DNA of 31,923 nucleotides from Streptomyces sp. NRRL S-350 (GTDB lineage: Bacteria > Actinomycetota > Actinomycetes > Streptomycetales > Streptomycetaceae): the NCBI RefSeq assembly GCF_000719705.1, contig NZ_JOHO01000066.1:1-31923 (forward strand). Direction: 5' to 3'. Numbering within the stretch: the stretch's first letter is position 1; every line of letters starts with the position of its first letter. Below are positions 7,742-29,780 of the stretch, in pieces. The translations under genes and the position numbers were made by a program. Below the pieces are notes generated by a model. That model did no database searches, was not told where the DNA came from, and was given only the letters and a program-made list of their open reading frames with translations.

Positions 7742-8623
7742 TCACCGCGCGGGGCCGAGGTCAGTGATCGGGCATTCCCCCGACGGTGAGCCGGAGCCGC
7801 CGATCGGACACGTCCACCCCCGCAGGGAGGCGGCGAGGTCGACGGTGAGCCGGGCACTGAGCGCCGCGACGTCGTCGAGGGGGTAGGTGTGATCGCCGGG
7901 GAAGAGGCGCGGGGTCGCCGGTCGGCTGCTGATGTCGTTCCAACCGGCCAGGGCCTCCGGGGAGATGACGGGATCGTCCTCGCCTCCGTAGAGGGCGAGT
8001 TGGGCGTCCAGCGGTGGTCCCTGGTGGGGCGGGAACTGCAGGGCGAGCAGAAGATCGGCGAGCATCGGTATCCACGCGTTGACCAGTGCCCTGGGGTCGT
8101 GGTCGACGTGGTCGGGTAGGCGGCCGAAGAGCTTCTCGATCCCCTCCCGGCCGCCGAGCAGGACCTCCGGAGCCTTTGTGGTGAACTCGGGGTGGTGGGG
8201 GGCGGCCATGGCGGACAGGGCGAGCAGGGTGGGTGGGCGGTGGCCCTGCCGGATGAGGCACTTGACGGTCTCGTAGGCGACGAGGGCCCCCACGCTGTGG
8301 CCGAACACGGCGTACGGGTGGCCGTCGTCGCCCTGACGGATGCGCTCCGCGAGGAGCCGGCCGAGGCGGTGCGGGTCGGTGTGCACCGCCGTGCCGACGG
8401 CGCGTCCACGTCCGGGCAGTTGCAGGGCGTGCACGCTGACGGTGGTCGGCAGGTGGGCGGTGAAGGCCTGGAAGTAGGTGGCGTTCGTTCCCGCGGGCGG
8501 CATGCAGTAGAGGCGCAGGAGGTGTCCGTCGCCGGTGGCGGCCGGGCTCAGTGCGACGAAGTCGGGTTGGTCGACGGCGGTGGTCAGGCGGGCCGAACTG
8601 CTGTCCGCTCCAAGGGTGTTCAT
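7742..8623 (-). CDS. Type II-like thioesterase (RifR/GrsT family) of the PKS locus
   Basis: A 293-residue alpha/beta hydrolase. Family members hydrolyse mis-primed or finished acyl chains from carrier proteins. The nucleophile elbow is FGHSVGA (S110), the acid lies in GGEDDP (D216 or D217), and the His is in PGDHTYPL (H245). The N-terminal LYCMPPAGTNATYF is the usual oxyanion-loop region of type II thioesterases. It is about 30-50 residues longer than typical family members, with an unstructured Gly/Pro/Ser tail. The ATG at 8623 overlaps the PKS stop as ATGA, implying translational coupling. The PKS has no terminal TE domain, so this protein may release the product as well as edit. Releasing versus editing cannot be told from sequence. 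Confidence 0.9.
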   Translation of the reverse strand: MNTLGADSSSARLTTAVDQPDFVALSPAATGDGHLLRLYCMPPAGTNATYFQAFTAHLPTTVSVHALQLPGRGRAVGTAVHTDPHRLGRLLAERIRQGDDGHPYAVFGHSVGALVAYETVKCLIRQGHRPPTLLALSAMAAPHHPEFTTKAPEVLLGGREGIEKLFGRLPDHVDHDPRALVNAWIPMLADLLLALQFPPHQGPPLDAQLALYGGEDDPVISPEALAGWNDISSRPATPRLFPGDHTYPLDDVAALSARLTVDLAASLRGWTCPIGGSGSPSGECPITDLGPAR

Positions 8624-11600
8624 GCGTGCTCACTCCGCTCCGGGACGGCGACGGTGTTGGCGGGGTCGGCGTGGCCCGGCTGCCGGAGGCGGTACAGGGC
8701 TCGCTTGGCGATGTCGGGCAGGTGCGCGGCGCCCATCAGTTCCAGGGTGGGGATGTCGCAGCCGAGGTGCCGGCGCAGTGCCGCGGAGAGTTCCAGGAAC
8801 ATCAGGGAGTCGATGCCGAGCAGGTCGAGGCGGCTGGTGCGGTCCAGGCGGTCGACGGGGGTGTGCAGGACGGCGGCGGCAAGCTCGGCGACCTTGTCCT
8901 CGATCAGGACGATGGCCTCGTCTTCGCTCAGCACGGCCACCTCGCTGCGCAGCGAGGTGAGGCTGTCGGTGCTCACCTCATGCTGTCGGAGCAGCGCGCC
9001 GGTCCTGGGCGCCCTGAGAGCGGGCAGGACGCGGCTGATGCTGTCCCAGTCGAAGCGGCCCAGTGCGACGACCGGTGCCGTTCGGGTGTCGAGAAGCCGG
9101 TCGAGTGCGGTGAGCGCGTCGGTGGCGGAGACGGGGGCCATGCCGTAGGAGGCCATCTCGTCGATACGTCCGGTGCGGTGGACGTATCCGGCGTCCGCGA
9201 TGACGCCCCATTGAACGGCGAGGGCGGGGCTGCCGCATCGGTGTCGGGCTCGGATCAGCGCTTCCATCGCGGCGTTGGCGGCGACATAGGGGGCCTGCTG
9301 GATGTTGCCGTCGAGGGCGGCTACCGAACTGTAGGCGAGGAAGAAGTCGGGATCGTGCTCTTCGGCGAGAGCGTCGAGTGCGTGGAGTCCGGCGATCTTG
9401 GGGGCGAGGACGGCCTCCAGCCGGGTGTCGGTGCAGTCGGTCAAGGGAGCGTCCGCGAGGACCATGGCGGCGTGCACGACGCCGCCCAGGCGCCGTTCCC
9501 GCAGGGCGGTGCGCACGGGGTCGAGGGCGCCGGGCCGCGTGACGTCGGCGCAGTGCACGGTGACCTCGACGTTCATGGCGCGAAGCTCGTCGAGCAGTCC
9601 CGCCGCGCCGGGAGTGCGGGCGCCTCGGCGTCCGACGAGATGAAGGTGGCGGGCGCCGCGTGCGGCGAAGTGACGGGCGGTGGCGGCACCGAATCCCGTG
9701 AGGCCACCGGTGATGACGAAGGCGGCGTCGGCGTCGAGTGCGCTCGCGGGCGCGGAGTCGACGACCGGTGGTGGGGCGTCGAACGTGATGACGACCTTCC
9801 CGATGTGCCGGGCGTGGCTCAGCAGGCTGAACGCCTCCCCGAAGCGTTCCGCGGGGAACGCGTGATGGGGCACCGGCCGCCAGCGGCCGGTGGTGACGGC
9901 TTCGGCCAGCGCGGTGAAGTGGCGCCGGACCACGGGCGCCTGCCGGTCGTGCAGGTCCAGCGTGTCCACTTCGAAGAACGAGACGTTGCGGGCCGGCGGG
10001 GAAACGGGCAGCGGATCGTCCCGCTCCGCGTCGCGTCGACCGAGTTCGATGAAACGTCCCTGCGGGGCGAGCAGGTGCAGGCTGCGCTGCCGGGCCTCGC
10101 CGGGCAGGGAGTTGAGGACGACGTCGACGCCGCGGCCGTCGGTCAGGTCGGCGACCTGTTCGGCGAAGTCCAGGGTGCGCGAGTCCAGCACCTGCTCGAC
10201 GCCCAGCAGGTGCAGCAGGCTCCGCTTGGCGGGTGTGCCGGCCGTGGCGATGACGCGCGCGCCGGCGAGCCTCGCGAGTTGCAGGGCGGCCAGCCCGACG
10301 CCCCCGGCGGCGGCGTGCACGAGGACGGTGTCGTCCTCGGTGAGGCCCGCGCACTGCTGGAGGGCGTGGTGTGCGGTGAGGAACGCGGTGGGCAGGGTGG
10401 CTGCCGCGGTGAACGCCATCGCGTCGGGCAGCGGTACGACGTGATCGCTGGAAGCCAGGACGTGGGAGGCCAGAGCGGTGTGGGCCATGGCCGCGACGCG
10501 GTCGCCCGGTGCGAGGTGGGTGACCCCGGGGCCGACCGCGGTGATGACGCCCGCGCAGTCCAGGCCGAGGCCGAGGAATCCGCGGCGCCGGGCTGCGGGC
10601 CGGGGGCTGCTGCCGGTCGCGGTGAGCAGGTCGTGGTGGTTCAGCGCCGCGGCCGCGGTACGGATGAGCACCTGTCCTTCGGCCGGGTGGAATGCGGTGG
10701 TGGCGCGCCAGGTGAAGACGGGGTGTCGTCCGGAGGCGTCGACGTGCAGTGCGTAGTGGGGTTCGGATCCGGATGCGGCCGCGGTGGCGGGCAGCGTGGT
10801 GACCCGAGTGGCGAACCGCCCTCGCGGGGTGAGGACCACTTCGTCGTCGACGGACTCCTCGGGGCTGCCCGCCGCGGCTGCGCTGCCCTGGAGGTGGTGC
10901 AGTTCGTGCAGGAGGCGCTGGAACGTGTCGTCGTTGCCCGGCTCGGTCAGGGCGATGCGACGTACGTTCAGTGCGGGGTGTTCGTTCGCCAAGCTTCGCG
11001 CGGCACCCCACAGGGGGGCGCCGTGGGGTGAGGGTGGCGGGGTGGGCGGCTGCTGGCTGTCGGCGTCGATGATCCAGACGCGCAGGTTCCCTTCGCCTGA
11101 CCGCGGGCTCCGGCCCCAGGCCCGGGTGAGGTCGCGCAGCGCGGCGAGCTGCCGCACGGCGTGGTCGGTGCGTTGCCGTGGTCCCGTTTCGCCGGCCGGT
11201 TCGGCGAGGAGGACCACGTCGCTCACCGGTCGGCGGCCCTCGGCTCCGTCTGCCGCAGCGGTCAGTTCGCGGGCCCAGGAGTCCGCACCGCCTGCCGCCG
11301 GGACGTGGTGGACGCGGCTCCGGGGGCAGGCGGCGAGCAGGGCCCGGGCCAGTCGGTGCGCCAACCCGGTGGGGGCGTCGGCGGTGGGCGTGCTGAGCAG
11401 CCAGGACCGCTGCGTCGGGTGATCGGGCGCGGTTGCGGCGGCGGAGGCCCGTCGCCCGCCCGATGCGTCAGGACGGGTACGGTCCGTTGCCTCGTCGGGG
11501 ACGGCGCGGGCACCGCGCTCCGCGACGACGAGGGACACGTAGGGCCGGTCGGCGGCGGTGTCGTCGTACTGGCCGGTGGCCGCGAAGCCGCAGTCGGCGA

Positions 11601-14600
11601 GCAGGTCGGGCCAGCGGTCGTAGGGCACCAGGGGACCGTCGGGCCGGACGTCCTGGTCGGTGGGGAGCCAGAAGGAGTCCAGCAGGCCGAACACCGGAGC
11701 CAGGAGTTCCGTGCTGTGGGTTTCCAGGGCGATCAGGTGGCCGCCGTCCGCGAGCAGGGTGGCCATGCCGCGCAGCGCGCGGGAGATGTCGCTCGTGGCG
11801 TGCAGGATGTTCGCGGCGATGACGAGGTCGTAGGCACCCGGCTCGAAGCCTTGGGCCACGGGGTCGCTGCCTGCGTCCAGGACCTGGTGGGTGAGGAAGT
11901 CATAGGCGTGGAAGCGCTCCTCGGCGGCGGGGAAGAACGCGGGTGACACGTCGGTGAAGGTGTAGTGGACGCGCTCCGGAGGCAGGTGCGGCAGCAGGGC
12001 CGCGGTGGTGGCGCCGGTGCCCGCACCGACTTCGAGGATGCGCAGCGGCCGGTCGGTGGGCCAACCGGCGACGACGCCGCGGATCCACCCGACGAGCGCC
12101 CGGGTGTGCGGGGCGAAGAAGGCGCCGGCCTCGTAGAACCGTTGGGCGAGGTTGTCGGCGTCGGAGAAGAGGAGCTCCAGGGGGTCGGCGTCACCGGTCA
12201 GGACATCGGCGAGGCGGTCCCCGCACACACCGTAGGTGAGGACGGTGACGGACTGGCCGGGAAAGTCCTCGAGCAGCCGGCTGAACAGTGCCTCGGGGCG
12301 TGGTGCGGCCGGGCTGCTCCAGACGCCGGGCCCGGTGGCGGTGAGGACGCCGGCACTGACGGCTTGGGGCAGCAGGACCTCCAGGAGCCGCGCGTGCTTG
12401 GCCTCGACCCCCGCCTCGATGAGGTCGGCCAGGCCGAACGAGGAGTGCTTCGCGGCTGGGAGCAGGTGGCGCACGGCCCGGGCGGTGGAGTGGGCGCAGG
12501 CTTCGAGCAGGCGTGGCCGCAGCGCGTCGCTGATCCGGTGCAGCCGGCCCAGTCGGGCGTCGTTCTGCCCCCTGACCAGTTCCGGCAGCGACTGCGGGGC
12601 GGGCAGCGGGCTCCGGCCGGGCTCGGGTCGGCCGGGTAGCGGCACCGCGCGCAGGACTTCGGTGAGGCGGTCCGGCCCGTCGGCGGTCACGGTTTCGAGG
12701 CGTCGCAGTTCGCAGCCGAGCAGTTCCATGCACACCTCGCCGTCGTCGTCGCACACGGCGATGTCCCACAGGCCTTCGGGGCCGGTGGCGCGGGTGACGT
12801 GGCTGAAGCCGGAGGAGGGCAGCGTCCGCCAGCTGCGGACGGTGGTGATGCGGGCGGGCAGGAACGGGGCGGGGCGGTCCGCGGTGAACATCAGCGGCAG
12901 ACAGCTCTGCAGGGCCGCGTCCACCAGCGTGGGGTGGGCGATGACTCCGGGCTCGGGCCGGATCGGTGCGGTGGACTCGTAGCGTCCTACGGTCTCCTCC
13001 GCCCCGGTGTGCAGGTGGGTGACGGTCCGGAACGCCGGCCCGTAGTCGAGAGCGGCCCGACGGGCGGCTGCGTAGTGCTCCGGGGCGGGATGCCGGTTCG
13101 GCAGCCGGCGTTCCAGGGCCGCGACGTCCAGCGGGGGGCGCTGTGGGCGCAGCAGGCTCCGCACGCCGGCGCGGACGTGCTCGGTCCAGTCCTGTTCGCC
13201 GGTGCGGCTTCGAATGGTGAGCCTGCCGTCCCGGGAGAGGTGGGTGGCCAGGTGGATGTCGTCGTCCCCGTCCTCGGGGCTTGCGGAGTCGGTGCTCCAG
13301 TCGAGGGTCAGGGCCCGGTCGATGGACAGGCCGGTGATTTCGAGTGGTCCGTCGTGTCGGCTCCGGGCGGCGGCCAACGCCATTTCCACGAAGCCTGCGG
13401 CGGGCCAGACGACGGCGTCCGCGACCCGATGGTCTTCCATCCAGGACAGCCGGTCGGCGTCCAGACGGTTCGACCACGTGGCCTCCGGCCCGGCTTGGCG
13501 GGAGCCGAGCAGGGGGTGGGGACCGGCGGCATTCTCACCGGGGGCGTCTTCCTGCCACCAGGACGCGTCCCCGTTCCAGTGCCGCTCGCGCTGCCACGCC
13601 ACCGCCGGCAGGTCGGCCACCGCGCCGGGACGGGGGAAGTAGCCGTCCCAGTCCACCGCCGCCCCGGCGGCGAGTACGTGCAGGGCGGTCCGCTGCAGCG
13701 CGTCCACGGTGGCGAACGTCCGGGACAGCGTGGGAACGATCACGCCGGGAGCGGGGGCGTCGGCGGTGGCGCGCCGCAGATAGGCGGTCAGCACGGGGTG
13801 GGGGCCGACTTCGACCAGGACGTCGCAGGCGGCGTCCCCGGCCGTCAATTCGGTGGCGGCCTGGTGGAAGCGGACGGGGCGGCGGATGTTGGCCCACCAG
13901 TACTCGGCGTCCAGGGCCTGCCCTGACTCAAGGCGGCCGGTCACCGAGGAGACCATCGGGATGCGGAAGGACCGGGGGGTCAGGGATTCCAGCGCGCGAG
14001 CCAACTGGTCACGCACGGGCGCCATGGCTTCGGTGTGGAAGGCGTAGTCGAGGCGCAGGTCCCGGAAGAAGACGCCGTCGGAATCCAGTGCGGCGCCGAG
14101 GGCCGCAAGGTCCTCGTGCGGGCCCGCGAGGGTGACGTCCTGGTCGGAGTTGATCGCGGCGATCTCGACGCGGCCGGTGAGCTGAGCCTGCTCGAGCCTT
14201 TCCCTGGCGGCGTGTTCGCTCAGGCCCACCGCGGCCATGCCGCCCGAGCCCGCCGTGGCGGCCTGGGCGAGGCTGCGGGCGGCGATGACGCGGCAGGCTT
14301 GCGCCCGGGTGAGGCCACCCGCGCAGTACGCGGCGGCCACCTCCCCGACGCTGTGTCCCATGACGGCGTGCGGATCGACGCCGCGGGCGGCCAGGGCGGC
14401 GACCAGGCCCGCCTGGACGGCGAACAGCATCGGCTGCGCGACTTCCGTGCGGTCCCAACGGGAGGCGTCGGCGCAGGCCATCTCCTCGCGCACGCTCCAG
14501 CCGAGCAGGGGCTCGAGCTCGTCGCTGACGGCGTCGACTTCGCTGGTGAACGCATCGTCCCGGCCGAGGAGTTCGGCCCCCATGCCGGCCCACTGCGATC

Positions 14601-16371
14601 CGTTCCCGCAGAAGACGAAGCCGATCCGGCCTCCGCTCACCAGACGTTCGGTGGCGGTGGCGGCTTCCTGCCCCCGGGCCGCCCGGGCCAGGACCTCCGC
14701 GGCCTGGGCGGGACCGGTCGCGAAGAACGCCATGCCGTGGCGGCGCCGGGTCCGTCGCCGGCACGAGGTGAAGGCGGCGTCGTACAGGGCCTCGGGCCCC
14801 TGCGAGGAGTCGGCGGCCATCGCGGCGAAGTGCTCCGCCCAGGACTCCAGGGCGGCGGTCAGCGCCTGGGCCGTGTGGGCGGAGACGACGACCGGCACCG
14901 GCCGCGCCGCAGCGCCGGCGACCGGCGCGGAGGGGTCGCCCGGCGCGGCGCCGTCGGCGCCGACAGCGCGGGCCGGTGGCACCGACGGTACGGGCGGAGC
15001 GGCCGGGACGGGCGGTGCGGCCAGAACGGCGTGCGCGTTGGCGCCACCGATGCCGAAGGAGTTGATGCCGACCACCACGCGGCTGTCGCCGGGAACGGGG
15101 CGGGCGGTGAGTACCGGCTGCAGACCGAGGCGGTCGAAGTCGATCTTCGGGTTGGGTGGATCGGCGTGCAGGGTCCTCGGTATGGAACGGGACTTGATGA
15201 CGATCAGCGACTTCAGCACACCCGCCATCCCGGCCGCCGCTTCCAGGTGCCCGAGGTTGGACTTGATCGAACCGATCGGGAGCGGGGCGTCGGCACGTCG
15301 GCTGCCGAGCACCTCCCCCAGCGCCGCGCACTCGACGGGGTCTCCGACCAGGGTGCCGGTGCCGTGCGCCTCCACGTAGGACACGTCGCGCGGGTCGATG
15401 CCGGCGGTGGCGTACACACGGCGCAGCAGAGCGGCCTGGGTGCGTGAACTCGGTGCGGACAGGCCCACGGTGCGGCCGTCGGAGTTGAGTGCGGTGGCCA
15501 GGACGACGCCATGCACGCGGTCGCCGTCGGCGAGGGCGGCGGCCAGGGGTTTCAGGACGAGCATCACGGCACCCTCGGAGCGCACGAAGCCGTCGGCCGC
15601 TGCGCCGAAGGGGTGGCAGCGCCCCGTCGGCGAGAGCACTCCGGCCTGCGCGTAGCCGACGAAGGGTCCGGGCGCCAGCATCAGGTTCACCGCGCCTGCC
15701 ATGGCGAGCGGGCTGCGGCCGGTGCGCAGGTGTTCGCACGCCTGGTGCAGCGCGGTCAGACCGGAGGAGCAGGCGCTGTCCACGGCGCTGGACGGTCCGG
15801 TCAGGTCCAGTTCGTACGAGACGCGGTTGGCCGTGGTCGACAGGAGTCCGCCGGTGGTGGTGTAGGGATTGCTCGAACGCAGGCGGCGCGCCTGCAGGTC
15901 GGCGTAGTCGTGGTTGGAGACACCGGTGACGACGGCGGTTTCGGTGCCGGCCAGGGCACGGATGTCGAGGGCGGCGTCGTCGAGGGCTTCGACCGCGCAT
16001 TCGAGGAGCAGACGCTGCTGCGGATCGATGCGGGAGGCTTCCTTGGGAGTGATGCCGAAGTACGAGGTGTCGAAGCCGGTGACCTCCGGCTCGGGTAGGA
16101 AACCGCCCGCGAGGGAGTGGAACTTGCCCGGACTCCCGGAGCGACGGGCTTGGTGGGCACTGATGTCGAAGCGGTCCGGGGGCATGGTGCCGACCAGGTC
16201 GCGTCCGTCGTGCAGGGCCTGCCCGAGCTGGTCCAGGCGGTGGATGCCGCCCGGCAGGCGCAGGCCCACCCCGATCACGGCCACGGCGTCAGCAGGCAGC
16301 GGGGGATGGCCGGGAGGCGGCTGGTCGACGTCGGAGGAGGCGTACGGAGAGGATGTACGGGGTTCAGCCAT
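8620..16371 (-). CDS. Single-module, fungal-type highly reducing type I polyketide synthase (KS-AT-DH-cMT-ER-KR-ACP)
   Basis: 2583 residues from the ATG at 16371, which has GGAGGAA 4 bases upstream; an ATG at 16395 would add 8 residues. KS about 28-452 has Cys201 in DSACSSG, His336 in EAHGTGT and His375 in KSNLGHLEA. AT about 583-885 has FCGNGSQWAGMG and GHSVGE (S674), with YAFH at 776-779 suggesting malonyl-CoA. DH about 950-1228 has H981 (DHRVADAVVWP, Asp where Gly is usual) and D1151 (HPTLVDAALQ). C-methyltransferase about 1395-1615 has LEVGAGTGA (1446-1454). A structural-KR-like linker spans about 1655-1850. ER about 1888-2198 has HAAAGGVG (2019-2026). KR about 2215-2450 has TGGLTGFG, S2348 or S2349, Y2362 and N2366. 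ACP about 2475-2560 has GIDSL (S2522). All domains look competent. With one module and no TE, iterative use is inferred. The product is probably a reduced, alpha-methylated chain. Confidence 0.95.
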   Translation of the reverse strand: MAEPRTSSPYASSDVDQPPPGHPPLPADAVAVIGVGLRLPGGIHRLDQLGQALHDGRDLVGTMPPDRFDISAHQARRSGSPGKFHSLAGGFLPEPEVTGFDTSYFGITPKEASRIDPQQRLLLECAVEALDDAALDIRALAGTETAVVTGVSNHDYADLQARRLRSSNPYTTTGGLLSTTANRVSYELDLTGPSSAVDSACSSGLTALHQACEHLRTGRSPLAMAGAVNLMLAPGPFVGYAQAGVLSPTGRCHPFGAAADGFVRSEGAVMLVLKPLAAALADGDRVHGVVLATALNSDGRTVGLSAPSSRTQAALLRRVYATAGIDPRDVSYVEAHGTGTLVGDPVECAALGEVLGSRRADAPLPIGSIKSNLGHLEAAAGMAGVLKSLIVIKSRSIPRTLHADPPNPKIDFDRLGLQPVLTARPVPGDSRVVVGINSFGIGGANAHAVLAAPPVPAAPPVPSVPPARAVGADGAAPGDPSAPVAGAAARPVPVVVSAHTAQALTAALESWAEHFAAMAADSSQGPEALYDAAFTSCRRRTRRRHGMAFFATGPAQAAEVLARAARGQEAATATERLVSGGRIGFVFCGNGSQWAGMGAELLGRDDAFTSEVDAVSDELEPLLGWSVREEMACADASRWDRTEVAQPMLFAVQAGLVAALAARGVDPHAVMGHSVGEVAAAYCAGGLTRAQACRVIAARSLAQAATAGSGGMAAVGLSEHAARERLEQAQLTGRVEIAAINSDQDVTLAGPHEDLAALGAALDSDGVFFRDLRLDYAFHTEAMAPVRDQLARALESLTPRSFRIPMVSSVTGRLESGQALDAEYWWANIRRPVRFHQAATELTAGDAACDVLVEVGPHPVLTAYLRRATADAPAPGVIVPTLSRTFATVDALQRTALHVLAAGAAVDWDGYFPRPGAVADLPAVAWQRERHWNGDASWWQEDAPGENAAGPHPLLGSRQAGPEATWSNRLDADRLSWMEDHRVADAVVWPAAGFVEMALAAARSRHDGPLEITGLSIDRALTLDWSTDSASPEDGDDDIHLATHLSRDGRLTIRSRTGEQDWTEHVRAGVRSLLRPQRPPLDVAALERRLPNRHPAPEHYAAARRAALDYGPAFRTVTHLHTGAEETVGRYESTAPIRPEPGVIAHPTLVDAALQSCLPLMFTADRPAPFLPARITTVRSWRTLPSSGFSHVTRATGPEGLWDIAVCDDDGEVCMELLGCELRRLETVTADGPDRLTEVLRAVPLPGRPEPGRSPLPAPQSLPELVRGQNDARLGRLHRISDALRPRLLEACAHSTARAVRHLLPAAKHSSFGLADLIEAGVEAKHARLLEVLLPQAVSAGVLTATGPGVWSSPAAPRPEALFSRLLEDFPGQSVTVLTYGVCGDRLADVLTGDADPLELLFSDADNLAQRFYEAGAFFAPHTRALVGWIRGVVAGWPTDRPLRILEVGAGTGATTAALLPHLPPERVHYTFTDVSPAFFPAAEERFHAYDFLTHQVLDAGSDPVAQGFEPGAYDLVIAANILHATSDISRALRGMATLLADGGHLIALETHSTELLAPVFGLLDSFWLPTDQDVRPDGPLVPYDRWPDLLADCGFAATGQYDDTAADRPYVSLVVAERGARAVPDEATDRTRPDASGGRRASAAATAPDHPTQRSWLLSTPTADAPTGLAHRLARALLAACPRSRVHHVPAAGGADSWARELTAAADGAEGRRPVSDVVLLAEPAGETGPRQRTDHAVRQLAALRDLTRAWGRSPRSGEGNLRVWIIDADSQQPPTPPPSPHGAPLWGAARSLANEHPALNVRRIALTEPGNDDTFQRLLHELHHLQGSAAAAGSPEESVDDEVVLTPRGRFATRVTTLPATAAASGSEPHYALHVDASGRHPVFTWRATTAFHPAEGQVLIRTAAAALNHHDLLTATGSSPRPAARRRGFLGLGLDCAGVITAVGPGVTHLAPGDRVAAMAHTALASHVLASSDHVVPLPDAMAFTAAATLPTAFLTAHHALQQCAGLTEDDTVLVHAAAGGVGLAALQLARLAGARVIATAGTPAKRSLLHLLGVEQVLDSRTLDFAEQVADLTDGRGVDVVLNSLPGEARQRSLHLLAPQGRFIELGRRDAERDDPLPVSPPARNVSFFEVDTLDLHDRQAPVVRRHFTALAEAVTTGRWRPVPHHAFPAERFGEAFSLLSHARHIGKVVITFDAPPPVVDSAPASALDADAAFVITGGLTGFGAATARHFAARGARHLHLVGRRGARTPGAAGLLDELRAMNVEVTVHCADVTRPGALDPVRTALRERRLGGVVHAAMVLADAPLTDCTDTRLEAVLAPKIAGLHALDALAEEHDPDFFLAYSSVAALDGNIQQAPYVAANAAMEALIRARHRCGSPALAVQWGVIADAGYVHRTGRIDEMASYGMAPVSATDALTALDRLLDTRTAPVVALGRFDWDSISRVLPALRAPRTGALLRQHEVSTDSLTSLRSEVAVLSEDEAIVLIEDKVAELAAAVLHTPVDRLDRTSRLDLLGIDSLMFLELSAALRRHLGCDIPTLELMGAAHLPDIAKRALYRLRQPGHADPANTVAVPERSEHA

Positions 16372-16515: not shown

Positions 16516-17379
16516 CTACCCGGTCGGCTGCACCGGCTTGCGACCCCATACGGAGACGGCGTGCATGCCGAGATCCGTGAAGTCCGGTCGGTCGATCAAG
16601 GAAAGCGCCGCGTCCAGCTCGTCGGCCAGGGGAGAGCCGTTCCGGGCCTGGTGGTCGCGGAGTTGTGCGAACGACAGCCGCCAGAACTCGTCAGCGGGGC
16701 CGCCGGCACCGATCATCACCGGCTGCACCGCCATGCCGCCCAAGACGAAGCCGGCACCGGTCACCAGGGCTTGCAACCGTCGGCCCAGGCGGAGATCGCT
16801 GCCCTGGGAGGCCCCGAGGGTCCGCTCGGCGACGAGCAGGCCCTGACGCATCACCGGGTGGGGTGAGGCATCGGCGGGCCCCAGGTCGAGATCCTCGGCC
16901 AGGAGGAGGCCACCGGGGCGCAGCCACTCGGCCATGGCGGCCAACGCCTGTGCGGGGTCGGCCAGATGGCACAGGACCATCCGGGCGTGGATCACGTCGA
17001 AGGAGCCGGTCGGAAAGCCGTCCCGGGTCACGTCGTGGCTCAGGACGGTGATGCGCTCCTCGGTCGCGAGGTCCGCGAAGAAACGGGTGTCGATGTCCGT
17101 CGCGGTGACGTCACCGCTCGGGCAGATCCGGGCCAGCATCCGGGCCACCGACCCAGCGCCTGCCCCGACTTCCAGACAGCGGGCCGTGGCGGGCACGCCT
17201 GCCTGTCCGAGGTACTGCTCGGTGAACGGGTCCCACAGGTCCTGCAGCGCACGCAGCCGGCCTTGTTCACCGGTCCTCTGATGGCCGAAGGCCCCGGCCT
17301 CGTAGCCGGACGCCGCCTCGGAGCGGGACGCCGCCTCGGATCCGGGCCCGCGCCCGGTCGTGGGATTGGATCTGGTCAA
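16516..17379 (-). CDS. Class I SAM-dependent methyltransferase
   Basis: A 287-residue UbiE/Methyltransf-11-like enzyme. SAM motif I is CLEVGAGAGSVA (68-79), followed by VTATDID (motif II), FDVIHARMVLCHL (motif IV) and WLRPGGLLLAED. The C-terminal third is a helical cap ending SVWGRKPVQ. I chose the TTG at 17379 because AGGAAGG lies 8 bases upstream and the resulting length is normal. A GTG at 17484 would add a low-complexity 35-residue extension without homology-like features. It lies 144 bp upstream of the PKS on the same strand and is probably co-transcribed. The substrate is unknown: a tailoring O-methylation or carboxyl methylation of the polyketide is plausible, because C-methylation is already supplied by the PKS. 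Confidence 0.85.
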   Translation of the reverse strand: MTRSNPTTGRGPGSEAASRSEAASGYEAGAFGHQRTGEQGRLRALQDLWDPFTEQYLGQAGVPATARCLEVGAGAGSVARMLARICPSGDVTATDIDTRFFADLATEERITVLSHDVTRDGFPTGSFDVIHARMVLCHLADPAQALAAMAEWLRPGGLLLAEDLDLGPADASPHPVMRQGLLVAERTLGASQGSDLRLGRRLQALVTGAGFVLGGMAVQPVMIGAGGPADEFWRLSFAQLRDHQARNGSPLADELDAALSLIDRPDFTDLGMHAVSVWGRKPVQPTG

Positions 17380-18284: not shown

Positions 18285-18607
18285 CGTCGTCCCCCGTCCG
18301 GCGGCACTGTCCGGTCCGCCCCTCGGAGGGGGACGATCGGTGGTGTCTGCAACGACCTTGACACACGCGACCGCCCAGGCGAACGCCGGTTACCGCCCCG
18401 TGACACAACGTCGAAGGTCTGGCGACAATCAGCACCGGGAGTCGTCAGGCCAGGGTGCTCACCTGTCCGTACGCTCCACGGGCGAGCCGGTCGGGCGAAA
18501 CAGGGGAGGCGGTCTCGGGGTCGGCGTCGGTCGCGCAGCGGTGCACCTCTGCTCGACTTCAAGTGTCACCGGTGGCCCGGTTGTCTCTGGTGGGCCGCTG
18601 TCCGACC

Positions 18608-19603
18608 ATGAACCCCATGACCGATCTCGCGAGTCGGACGCCCCTGAGCCCCGATGGCCGTCTCGGGCGGGCTGATCGTCATCCGGGCCTGAGCGATCCG
18701 GTGTACCGGCGGCGCCGCGCCGCGGTCGCGGTTCTGGCCGAGGGGCGAGAAGTCGGTGACCGTGCCTGCCGCGTCAGGTACACCGAGCGGGAGCACGAGA
18801 CGTGGCGTTCGGTGTACCGGGCGTTGGTGGTCGCGCACCGCGGACGGGTGTGTGCCGCGGTGGAGCAGGCGCGTGAGGTGGCGCCGATCCCGGCGGACCA
18901 CGTGCCGCAGCACGCGGAGGTCGGTGACCGGCTTCGGTCGCTGACCGGGTTCGACTTCGCGGTCGCCGGCGGGTTCGTGCCGAACAAGCGGTTCCTCGGT
19001 TCGATGGCGCTGGGCTACTTCCACGCCGTGCAGTTCGTGCGGCATCCCGCGCTGCCGCTGTACACCCCGGAGCCGGACATCATCCACGACGTGTTCGGCC
19101 ACGGCATCCACCTGGCCTCGCCGTGGTTCGCCGACCTGTACCGCTTGTTCGGGGCCGCGGCCCGGCGAGTCGACACCGAGGACGCGCTGGACCTGATCAG
19201 CCGGGTGTACTGGTTCAGCCTGGAGTACGGCGTGCTGGCCCGGCGACGGCGGGTGGAGGCGTACGGCGCGGCGCTGCTGTCCTCCTACGGTGAGCTGACC
19301 GGCCTGCACCGGGCCGAGGTCCGCCCCTGGGACCTCGGGGAGGTGCTGCGCCAGCCCTTCGAGGTCGCGGGCTACCAGCCGACCTTGTTCGCGACGCGCT
19401 CGCTCGACCACCTCGCGGAGCAACTGCACGCGTTCCTGGACGACTTCGACGAGGAGACCGGGCCCCGTCTGGGGCTGCCGCCGAAGTCGCAACGAGGGGC
19501 GATTCCCCGGCTTCCGGCCGGTGCGGGCGGGCCGGTGGCAGGTCCGGCCGTGCGCGCGACGGGAGAGGCTGACGGGTCGACAGGTACCGTTCACCGGTGG
19601 TAG
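18608..19603 (+). CDS. Biopterin-dependent aromatic amino acid hydroxylase (phenylalanine 4-monooxygenase-like)
   Basis: 331 residues. Family enzymes hydroxylate Phe (or Trp/Tyr) using tetrahydropterin, O2 and a non-haem iron. The 2-His-1-Glu site is clear: H160 and H165 in PDIIHDVFGHGIHLA, and E206 in YWFSLEYGV. Other family blocks are the PIPADHVPQ-type segment (94-102), GFDFAVAGGFVPNKRFL and PLYTPEPD. The N-terminal 60 residues show no ACT regulatory domain, as in bacterial PhhA. The ATG at 18608 was chosen, with an ATG at 18617 also possible; neither has a strong Shine-Dalgarno. No pterin-4a-carbinolamine dehydratase (phhB) is nearby. It is divergent from the PKS operon, so it may serve tyrosine supply, phenylalanine catabolism or tailoring in the cluster. 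Substrate specificity is not assignable here. Confidence 0.92.
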   Translation: MNPMTDLASRTPLSPDGRLGRADRHPGLSDPVYRRRRAAVAVLAEGREVGDRACRVRYTEREHETWRSVYRALVVAHRGRVCAAVEQAREVAPIPADHVPQHAEVGDRLRSLTGFDFAVAGGFVPNKRFLGSMALGYFHAVQFVRHPALPLYTPEPDIIHDVFGHGIHLASPWFADLYRLFGAAARRVDTEDALDLISRVYWFSLEYGVLARRRRVEAYGAALLSSYGELTGLHRAEVRPWDLGEVLRQPFEVAGYQPTLFATRSLDHLAEQLHAFLDDFDEETGPRLGLPPKSQRGAIPRLPAGAGGPVAGPAVRATGEADGSTGTVHRW

Positions 19604-21388: not shown

Positions 21389-22579
21389 ATGGCGACCAAT
21401 TCGACAGCAGGGACGACCAACCTCTCAGTGGTGGAGCGTGCACTGCGCACCGCTGCCCCGCACGCCCTGCTCGACGCCGTGCGCGCGGCACTGCGGGAGC
21501 TGTACGCGGCCTGGGACGTCCAGCTGTTGATGGCCGACTACAGCCTCTCCTTCCTCCAGCAGGTGACCGCGCTGCCGCACACCGCCGAGGCGGTGGCGGT
21601 GCACACCAGCGATCCCGGGCGGGCGTTCGGCTCCCAGCAGCCGTTCGCCACCTCCGTCGGCGGCGGCCGAGTACTGCTGTACCTGCCGGTCACGGTCCGC
21701 GGCGACCGACTCGGCGTTCTCCAGGTGGGTCTGGATGGCGATGCACCCGATCCCGGCGCGGTGGAGGAACTGGCGGAGATCGCGGAGATTCTCGGCCACC
21801 AGATCGTCGTCGCCGAGCGGGACACCGACCTCTACCTCCAGGCGCGCCGGAAGGACCGTCTGACCCTGGCCGCCGAGATGCAGTGGCAGCTCCTGCCGGC
21901 CCGCGCCTGCCGCCGCCAGGAGTACGCGATCGGCGCGCAGCTGGAGCCCGCCTACGCCATCCGGGGCGACAACTTCGACTGGTCGACCACCGGCGACTTC
22001 CTCACCCTGACCGTCACCAACGGCATGGGCGAGGGCATCGAGGCATCACTGCTCACCAACCTCGCCGTCAATGCCCTGCGCAACGCCCGCCGGGCCGGCG
22101 TGTCGCTCGCCGACCAGGCCGCGCTGGCGGACCAGGCGATCTACGGCCAGTACCAGGGAGCCGCCCACGTCGCGGTCCTGCTGCTGCGCTTCGACCTGCG
22201 GACCGGCGAGGTCGAGATCGTGGACGCGGGCTCGCCGCGGCTGCTCAGATCACGCGGCGGCACGGTCGAACGGATCGATCTGGAGGCGCAGTTGCCGCTG
22301 GGCCTGGCCGACGACACGCCCTACACGGTGCAACGAGAGCGGGTCCTGCCGGGCGATCGGTTGATCTTCGTCAGCGACGGCGTGCACAGCGTCGCCTCGG
22401 ACGCCGGCGAGCAGTACGGCGAGCGAGCACTGGTCCGGTCCATCCAAGCCACCCGGCTGCTGCCGGCCGCCGAGGTACCCCGGGCCGTACTGGCCGAGCT
22501 GTCGGCCTACCGGCACGCGGTGGCGGACGACGACGCCCTCGTGGTCTGCCTGGACTGGTTCGGTCGCGCCAGGGCGTGA
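21389..22579 (+). CDS. GAF-PP2C (RsbU/SpoIIE-like) serine phosphatase with variant metal site
   Basis: 396 residues from an ATG with a strong AAGGAAAGG Shine-Dalgarno. Residues about 20-145 resemble a GAF sensory domain. Residues about 160-392 are a PPM/SpoIIE-type phosphatase: AAEMQWQLLP (linker helix), IRGDNFDW (191-198, usually GGDxYD), VTNGMGEG (209-216, usually GDVxGHG), FVSDGV (D330) and VADDDALVV. Asn211 stands where the family has a metal-binding Asp. I recall similar RGDNFDW/NGMGEG variants in streptomycete proteins, so it may be a subfamily trait rather than a mutation. Family members dephosphorylate STAS antagonists, and one is encoded nearby. Activity may be altered, lost or use a different metal arrangement. 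Confidence 0.88.
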   Translation: MATNSTAGTTNLSVVERALRTAAPHALLDAVRAALRELYAAWDVQLLMADYSLSFLQQVTALPHTAEAVAVHTSDPGRAFGSQQPFATSVGGGRVLLYLPVTVRGDRLGVLQVGLDGDAPDPGAVEELAEIAEILGHQIVVAERDTDLYLQARRKDRLTLAAEMQWQLLPARACRRQEYAIGAQLEPAYAIRGDNFDWSTTGDFLTLTVTNGMGEGIEASLLTNLAVNALRNARRAGVSLADQAALADQAIYGQYQGAAHVAVLLLRFDLRTGEVEIVDAGSPRLLRSRGGTVERIDLEAQLPLGLADDTPYTVQRERVLPGDRLIFVSDGVHSVASDAGEQYGERALVRSIQATRLLPAAEVPRAVLAELSAYRHAVADDDALVVCLDWFGRARA

Positions 22580-28301: not shown

Positions 28302-29780
28302 GGGCCCCGGCGACCGCGGCGGCCCCCGTTACCGTTTTCGCGGCCCCGCAACGGGGTTCCCGGCCTCCCGGCCCGGCATGACTTGCGCCCCCAGTCGATG
28401 ATGATCGAAAAGGTGGTGTCACCGGGCTCGGAGGCGTTGGCAGACCGCTGATGAGGGGCTTGAGCGCCGGATCCCGCACCGGGTCAGGCAGGCTCTCCGT
28501 AACGTGGATGCTGGCACGCCGATGCCGCAGGGCCGGGGAACGAGACCTGGGGAGGGGCAGTTGACCGGCACCGACGGTATAGATCTCTATCTCGGCCTGG
28601 ACGTCGGCAAGGGCGAGCATCACGCGAGCGCGCTCACGCCGGTCGGCAAGAAGGTCTTCGACAAGGCTCTGCCCAACAACGAGCCCCGGCTCCGCGAGCT
28701 GTTCACGAAGCTGCAGGCCAAGCACGGGACGGTGCTGGTGGTGGTCGACCAGCCGGCCACCGTCGGAGCCTTGCCGCTGGCCGTTGCTCGCGACACCGGC
28801 TGCCGCATCGCCTACCTGCCCGGCCTGACGATGCGCCGGATCGCCGACCTCTACCCGGGCGAGGCGAAGACCGACGCCCGCGACGCACACGTCATCGCGG
28901 ACGCCGCCCGCACCATGCCGCACACCCTGCGCGACCTGGTACCGGCCGACGAGACCGTCGCCGAGCTCGAGATGATCGCCGGATTCGATGACGACCTCGC
29001 GGGCGAGTCCACTCGGATCAAGAACCGCCTGCGCGGCCTGCTGACCCAGATCCATCCATCCCTTGAACGCGTCCTGGGCCCGCGACTCGACCACCCCGCC
29101 GTCCTCGCCCTGCTCGAACGCCACGGCTCACCAGACCAGTTGAGGAAGAGCGGCCGGAGGAGACTGATCACGCTGCTGCGGCCCAGGGCCCCACGGATGG
29201 CGGAGCGCCTGGTCGAGGACATCTTCACCGCCCTGGACGAGCAGACCGTCGTCGTCCCCGGCACCGAGGCCGCCGCGCTGATCGTCCCCAGCCTCGCCGC
29301 GTCACTGTCCGCGGTCATCGACCAGCGCAAACTCCTCGCCGCGAGGATCGAAGAACTGCTGGAGGCCCACCCTCTTTCCCCGGTCCTGATCTCGATGCCC
29401 GGCATCGGGGTCAGGACCGCCGCCCGGATCCTCGTCGACGTCGGCGACGCTCGCGCCTTCCCGAGCGCCGGCCACCTGGCCGCCTACGCCGGCCTGGCGC
29501 CCGTGACCCGCGCGTCCGGATCGTCCATCCGCGGCGAACACCCCTCCCGGCGGGGCAACAAGCAGCTCAAACGGGCCTTCTACCTCGCCGCGTTCGCCTC
29601 GTTGTCCCAGCCGGAGTCACGTGCCTACTACGACCGGAAACGACGCGAGGGCAAGCACCACGTCGCCGCCCTCGTCGCACTCGCCCGACGCCGCATCGAC
29701 GTCCTCTTCGCCATGCTCCGCGACGGCACCCTCTACCAGCCGCCGACCGCCGCGACCAGTTGACGAAGACCATAGGGGCA
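28302..29780 (+). mobile_element. IS110-family insertion sequence
   Basis: The segment between the two IS5 transposase halves contains one IS110 transposase gene with about 260 bp in front and about 17 bp behind. No terminal inverted repeats are seen, as expected for the family. Exact ends cannot be fixed: some of 28302-28440 may be residual IS5 sequence. The leader is where IS110 elements encode their bridge RNA; I infer its presence but did not fold it. Confidence 0.75.
28561..29763 (+). CDS. IS110-family transposase (DEDD recombinase)
   Basis: 400 residues from a TTG with GGGGAGG just upstream; an ATG at 28522 or GTG at 28504 would lengthen it without family support. The N-terminal RuvC-like DEDD domain has D14 (LYLGLDVGKGEH), D63 in VVVDQPAT at the usual Glu position, and D105/D108 in EAKTDARDAHV. 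The C-terminal Tnp_20 domain has the helix-hairpin-helix SMPGIGVRTAARILVDVGD and the serine-bearing segment ASGSSIRGEHPSRRGNK followed by QLKRAFYLAAFAS. Length and motifs are those of a full, probably active enzyme. Members use a bridge RNA to choose donor and target. Confidence 0.95.
   Translation: MTGTDGIDLYLGLDVGKGEHHASALTPVGKKVFDKALPNNEPRLRELFTKLQAKHGTVLVVVDQPATVGALPLAVARDTGCRIAYLPGLTMRRIADLYPGEAKTDARDAHVIADAARTMPHTLRDLVPADETVAELEMIAGFDDDLAGESTRIKNRLRGLLTQIHPSLERVLGPRLDHPAVLALLERHGSPDQLRKSGRRRLITLLRPRAPRMAERLVEDIFTALDEQTVVVPGTEAAALIVPSLAASLSAVIDQRKLLAARIEELLEAHPLSPVLISMPGIGVRTAARILVDVGDARAFPSAGHLAAYAGLAPVTRASGSSIRGEHPSRRGNKQLKRAFYLAAFASLSQPESRAYYDRKRREGKHHVAALVALARRRIDVLFAMLRDGTLYQPPTAATS

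Follow-up and report, generated by a model that had tools for sequence, protein, structure and literature searches.

The window analysed here, a stretch of 31,923 nucleotides from Streptomyces sp. NRRL S-350 that appears to be a whole contig, carries a gene for a single-module polyketide synthase (PKS) laid out like the highly reducing (HR) PKSs of fungi. The locus thus raises the question of whether such an enzyme is an oddity among bacteria, how it is related to its fungal counterparts, and what a lone module with two partner genes might make.

The PKS gene and its two partners

The ORF list and its translation place the PKS in one open reading frame on the minus strand, which starts at the ATG at 16371, with a GGAGG closely 5' of it, and stops at the TGA at 8620-8622 (Table 1). 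The domain order KS-AT-DH-cMT-structural KR-ER-KR-ACP on one chain, which the initial annotation had read together with the catalytic residues, was borne out by Pfam, by matches to solved structures in the PDB and by the conserved residues. Numbered on the 2,591-aa version of the ORF, the Pfam matches cover residues 36-411 (KS), 593-896 (AT), 960-1235 (DH), 1454-1554 (methyltransferase core), 1906-2203 (ER), 2225-2400 (KR) and 2500-2564 (ACP). Since the structural-KR/ER/KR region of MAS (PDB 5bp4) can be aligned to query residues 1732-2396, which take in part of the gap between cMT and ER as well as the ER and the KR, the full order includes a structural KR, and a WGAARSLANE-type motif in this segment is common to the whole family described below. 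No TE domain was found in the PKS protein by Pfam and no docking domain was seen by Pfam or inspection, the ACP match being trailed by just 27 residues; the description of the protein as a single module without a TE domain therefore held. A chance ORF was rejected on the conserved residues and the homologues, because most listed homologues (105 of 120) have a similar length (2,400-2,650 aa; eight are shorter and seven longer).

Table 1. Features of the three-gene unit, with positions in the window.
Feature	Coordinates	Strand	Evidence and remarks
Discrete alpha/beta-hydrolase thioesterase	7742..8623	-	Pfam PF00975; ATGA overlap with PKS stop
Single-module PKS, 2,583 aa	8620..16371	-	ORF, translation, Pfam, PDB matches, conserved residues
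Acyl carrier protein, GIDSL	8704..8898	-	Pfam PF00550, motif
Catalytic ketoreductase	9196..9723	-	Pfam PF08659; Lys/Ser/Tyr/Asn present
Enoylreductase, clade-specific NHHD for NYRD	9787..10680	-	Pfam PF08240/PF00107/PF13602, motif comparison
Structural (non-catalytic) KR-like segment between cMT and ER (approximate borders)	10756..11520	-	MAS 5bp4 alignment, WGAARSLANE-type motif
C-methyltransferase (query stretch; approximate borders)	11551..12399	-	Pfam PF08242, solved relatives
Dehydratase, HxxxDxxxxP and catalytic Asp	12691..13518	-	Pfam PF21089/PF14765, residues
Acyltransferase, GHSVGE, motif YAFH	13708..14619	-	Pfam PF00698
Ketosynthase (Cys and two His present)	15163..16290	-	Pfam PF00109/PF02801, residues
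Class I SAM methyltransferase, upstream of PKS	16516..17379	-	Pfam; TTG start inferred from homologues

The catalytic residues were tabulated for the window PKS and 32 of the 120 listed homologues (33 rows). Every row keeps Cys201, His336 and His375 of the KS, Ser674 of the AT, His981 and Asp1151 of the DH, His1524 and Glu1550 of the cMT, and Lys2325, Ser2349 and Tyr2362 of the KR; Asn2366 of the KR and Ser2522 of the ACP are present in 32 of the 33. The DH motif of the window PKS is HxxxDxxxxP, at a position where the aligned rows of the family differ (Gly in 13 and Asp in 11 of the 33). At the ER, on the other hand, the window PKS has the unusual NHHD; NH[HQ]D marks the close clade, being found in each of its ten rows and in none of the 23 others, 19 of which have NYRD, and the ER may thus have low or selective activity. 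For the AT, 30 of the 33 aligned rows show the motif YAFH and the remaining three YPFH or YAYH, in contrast to the ASH carried at this motif by the methylmalonyl enzymes EryA2 and MAS. Phenylalanine in this AT motif indicates malonyl-CoA, and the motif points to malonyl-CoA as the probable substrate of the window AT.

The methyltransferase, PKS and thioesterase genes all lie on the minus strand, in line with the mini-cluster with one methyltransferase and one thioesterase that had been described. Solved relatives of the thioesterase in the PDB include 3qmw, which we take to be RedJ, and RifR, a type II editing enzyme, so that the thioesterase may proofread rather than release. The methyltransferase gave a structure model with a pLDDT of 92, whose nearest fold neighbour is a Methanosarcina methyltransferase, followed by AtmM, RebM, TleD, MitM, SpnF and phosphoethanolamine methyltransferases (TM-scores ~0.5-0.6). 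It was not assigned as BioC, because its score against the NCBIfam BioC model (44 bits) falls below the cut-off of 185.

The other window ORFs were scanned selectively. On one flank of the unit the scanned ORFs include flavohaemoprotein-like, phosphoketolase and Na+/H+ exchanger genes, and on the other flank an aromatic amino acid hydroxylase, SpoIIE-type, two-component and AraC-type regulator genes and an IS110 transposase. Among the scanned ORFs neither flank has a further PKS gene, and no FadD-type or other acyl-ligase, starter gene or MMPL transporter was found. The hydroxylase gene, phenylalanine-hydroxylase-like and on the opposite strand near the cluster (18455-19603), has no match beside the relatives, and a pathway link was set aside since no match at E 1e-8 was found in the relatives' loci searched. 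The IS110-family transposase gene (28504-29763) lies ~11 kb from the cluster. Near the contig start, positions 28-46 hold 1 exact match to what we take to be a Nextera-type transposon adapter, probably a residue of sequencing and not part of the genome.

Recurrence of the unit and the wider bacterial family

Nine close relatives match the PKS at 81-87% identity along the protein. In one of them, P0004 from Streptantibioticus cattleyicolor (2,334 aa), the aligned sequence has no ACP stretch and the KR nucleotide motif is altered, which may reflect gene decay or a faulty annotation. Among the methyltransferase matches listed (120 of 231), nine, from Streptomyces and Kitasatospora, are 79-88% identical, and none of the rest exceeds 45%. 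Together with the gene order in the relatives described next, this drop points to methyltransferase, PKS and thioesterase as a putative single inherited functional unit.

A scan of named genomes retrieved the loci L009-L013 (from S. misionensis, S. pinistramenti, S. catenulae, S. diastatochromogenes and S. griseofuscus). The methyltransferase stands beside the PKS in L009, L010, L012 and L013, the contig of L011 starting at the PKS, and the 4-base overlap of PKS and thioesterase genes recurs in L009, L011 and L013, L010 and L012 stopping inside the PKS. The surroundings of the unit mostly differ among these Streptomyces relatives, and most of the other window genes used as queries are unmatched in L009-L013. 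A SpoIIE-type gene (window 21389-22579) is 67% identical to one in S. griseofuscus (L013:18980-20116); it lies on the methyltransferase side of the cluster in the window and on the thioesterase side in L013. L009 has part of an IS110 transposase.

These loci also bear on whether the PKS could be a module split off from an assembly line encoded on another contig. The host genome (8.78 Mb) is split into 253 contigs and has 28 KS matches on many of them, with further PKS modules on other contigs, which would leave room for such an arrangement. However, just 1 of the 28 matches lies in the window contig, which has no second KS, and non-PKS genes flank the unit; neighbouring modules and docking domains, the marks of a modular cis-AT system, were thus both absent from what was seen. 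Moreover, the PKS of the unit is the sole KS gene in the 20.6 kb fetched for L009 and for L013, the latter from a complete chromosome. As the unit is isolated in other species too, the split module was set aside, and we regard it as very improbable. Within the host genome the cMT/structural-KR region has one full match, the sole other match being weak and 73 residues long.

The unit is patchy within the genus. In 70 genomes, the host's own included, a loose first look was followed by scoring of 17 candidates per genome, and near-full-length PKS matches (frames of 2,488-2,798 residues) were found in 5 of the 70, again counting the host. Outside the host, the top match among these reaches 44% identity, and another 26 of the 70 genomes have shorter cMT-type matches.

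A wider protein search gave 563 hits with E<=1e-10, and 79 loci were fetched from the best 80 of 184 confirmed matches. Exactly one KS was present in 74 of the 79 loci, none in three and two in two, with gene counts in the fetched loci being approximate since a simple GC-frame gene caller was used. KS, cMT and ER share one ORF in 69 loci; in some of the 10 others the contig or the called ORF is cut. Complete single-module genes number 66 in these 79 loci (2,424-2,923 aa, median 2,533), so that the domain order, whose cMT position the initial annotation had called unusual for bacterial modular PKSs, is not rare when lone modules of bacteria are included. The lone single-module cMT PKSs are monophyletic in the KS (100/99) and cMT (97/92) trees, and the window PKS is a member of a large, little-studied, mostly actinomycete family, not a lone oddity. 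P0063, named from the myxobacterium Archangium violaceum, has a Streptomyces protein of the family as its partner in the KS tree (100/99), a grouping that suggests a possible transfer between phyla.

The neighbours of the PKS vary across the family, each neighbour cluster being classified by a single representative. Of the 79 loci, 15 have a thioesterase match and six an MFS transporter. An acyl-reductase (NAD_binding_4) is found near the PKS in 16 loci (L024, L028, L036, L038, L040, L045, L047-L051, L063, L067-L069 and L073), which suggests reductive release to an aldehyde or alcohol in place of the thioesterase. MMPL transporters occur near 14 loci (e.g. L052:14748-17060), a hint that some members of the family may make lipids. 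From these counts the release step seems to have been swapped among family members. Two family members share a contig in Streptomyces sp. RB17 (L021/L049, ~16 kb apart) and in Actinokineospora pegani (L061/L080, ~23 kb), and in both L038 and L052 the end of the fetched stretch cuts a further, cMT-bearing PKS gene; single modules of the family might sometimes act in series.

Relation to the fungal HR-PKSs

The fungal enzyme LovB and the PKS part of PsoA are single modules with the same order as the window PKS, including a cMT before the structural KR, and the initial comparison with the fungal layout, in which the cMT lies between DH and ER as in LovB, proved correct. LovF and SQTKS are further fungal HR iterative PKSs. 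The window PKS differs from LovB and PsoA in being bacterial and in having a discrete thioesterase gene that overlaps the PKS gene.

A KS tree was built from 64 rows and then from 46, after 21 close or redundant rows had been dropped and three references added; wider-family loci were sampled at every third locus number in the 64-row KS tree and at every sixth in the cMT tree. No tree was rooted, and the fungal enzymes were represented by two KS rows (LovB and PsoA) and one sure cMT row (LovB). In the 46-row KS tree the family adjoins LovB plus PsoA (98/91), the contrast set being modular KSs (host genome, EryA2, PikA1 and GfsA) plus MAS, CurL and a trans-AT KS; in the 64-row tree LovB alone groups with the family (100/95). 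The family KSs form their own branch (100/99) outside the fungal pair, that is, as sister to the fungal HR clade as represented by these two rows and not inside it. The cMT tree agrees weakly, with the fungal reference nearest (83/70) and CurJ grouped with AprA and DisA, apart from the family.

The check proposed at the outset, a phylogeny of KS and cMT, thus placed the fungal HR-PKSs nearest among the reference groups used, but approximately unbiased (AU) tests left both MAS (p 0.441) and CurL (p 0.158) acceptable as KS partners of the family, and grouping with the actinomycete modular KSs was weakly disfavoured (p 0.034). Unlike the trees, the pairwise scores lean to bacteria: the KS scores higher with GfsA (355.5), PikA1 (352.2), CurL (349.2) and MAS (342.3) than with LovB (292.9), and among solved relatives the cMT matches that of cyanobacterial CurJ (curacin) best, at 176.5 bits, ahead of 7dmb (122.6) and LovB (108.7). 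CurJ itself belongs to a modular assembly line. Given the AU results, these scores, the unrooted trees and the few fungal rows, a sister relation of the family KS to the fungal HR-PKSs is the leading but unproven placement. It is possible, and we put it forward tentatively, that the bacterial family as such is the sister of the fungal HR-PKSs and that the LovB-type architecture came to be shared through transfer of a whole synthase. Such a transfer would parallel the fungal 6-methylsalicylic acid synthases, for which actinobacterial ancestry is argued in the available part of PMC2636887.

A proposed pathway and its place among known systems

We consider it likely that the window PKS is an iterative, malonyl-using and SAM-methylating reducing enzyme, whose product the thioesterase would release and the methyltransferase would tailor. 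In this pathway the AT would load malonyl-CoA and the KS would lengthen the chain repeatedly on the single ACP; in selected cycles the cMT would methylate the alpha carbon with SAM as donor, and the depth of reduction by KR, DH and ER would differ from cycle to cycle. The discrete thioesterase would then free a methyl-branched acyl chain as the acid, and the separate methyltransferase may tailor the released product, possibly as an ester or ether.

That the enzyme must act iteratively, as first stated, was too strong. A lone module is consistent with iteration, but one extension of a supplied fatty or aromatic acyl chain, alpha-methylated and with the thioesterase releasing or editing, would also fit a single ACP with no second module. 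RifR, an editing enzyme, is indeed among the relatives of the thioesterase, and general metabolism could supply the starter, as neither an acyl-ligase nor a starter gene is among the scanned window ORFs. On the other hand, a full reducing set and a cMT in one lone protein is the LovB-like iterative layout, and the nearest references in the KS tree are fungal iterative enzymes; a single turn therefore appears unlikely.

MAS is the best whole-protein PDB match of the window PKS (767 bits), and is itself a single-module iterative reducing PKS with structural KR-ER-KR-ACP. The enzyme could accordingly be imagined as a lipid synthase of the MAS/Pks kind, turning ordinary fatty acids into multimethyl-branched surface lipids with SAM in place of methylmalonyl-CoA; this would agree with the KS grouping with MAS that survived the AU test and with the MMPL and acyl-reductase genes near members of the wider family. 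However, the best KS tree groups MAS with the modular enzymes, and MAS is not known to carry a cMT; its AT motif is of the ASH type. Mycobacterial MAS/Pks lipid synthases also have other partner genes, whereas neither a FadD-type ligase nor an MMPL transporter is among the scanned window ORFs. Membership of the mycobacterial MAS/Pks group was rejected on the presence of the cMT, the differing AT motif and a score of 940.7 bits against the NCBIfam Pks2 model (cut-off 2400), and we hold a lipid synthase of this kind to be quite improbable here.

For the iterative reading there are also parallels in Streptomyces itself. In Streptomyces sp. MP131-18 a single-module PKS, SBA_00390, was proposed to act iteratively in lagunapyrone biosynthesis and was likened to the fungal alternapyrone synthase; it shares with the window PKS the genus, the single module and a proposed iteration towards a methyl-branched chain, but the available part of the source describes it without ER and cMT and paired with a type III PKS (PMC5301196). 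The same strain has a family member, P0121, that is 47% identical to the window PKS over the alignment, and a lagunapyrone-type cluster is mentioned for a Lentzea genome in the available part of PMC9120177. Streptomyces iterative PKSs with discrete thioesterases are likewise on record: as far as the available text of PMC13389473 goes, the fuelimycin pathway, with a discrete thioesterase, yields fatty acids and the jawsamycin pathway, which has no thioesterase, yields none. These polycyclopropane enzymes resemble the window PKS in genus and in the iteration proposed for it, and that of fuelimycin also in its discrete thioesterase, but are given in the same text as KS-AT-DH-ACP with a standalone KR and a cyclopropanase, cMT and ER not being named (PMC13389473). 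The bacterial iterative subclasses of NaPDoS2, according to the available part of PMC9582728, are aromatic, PTM, enediyne and PUFA, with new ones widespread in Streptomyces, and the present family looks uncharted there. Of these subclasses the comparison covered PfaA, whose NCBIfam model the window PKS matches at 244 bits (cut-off 1010).

The suggestion that the pathway might be undescribed stands insofar as no characterised close homologue appeared among the open-licence papers listed, and must be qualified insofar as the fungal-like iterative Streptomyces PKS of lagunapyrone is already in print. A survey of iterative PKSs in Streptomyces, reportedly published in PNAS in 2020, could already include the family.

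How fungal HR-PKSs are programmed is difficult to work out, given the size of the enzymes and the slowness of their fungal hosts. A bacterial family that shares this layout, and that in Streptomyces comes in a minimal unit of three genes, provides tractable material with natural variation, which could teach what determines methylation pattern, reduction and chain length. If the sister relation of its KS to the fungal enzymes holds under wider sampling, the family would also bear on the origin of the fungal reducing PKSs.
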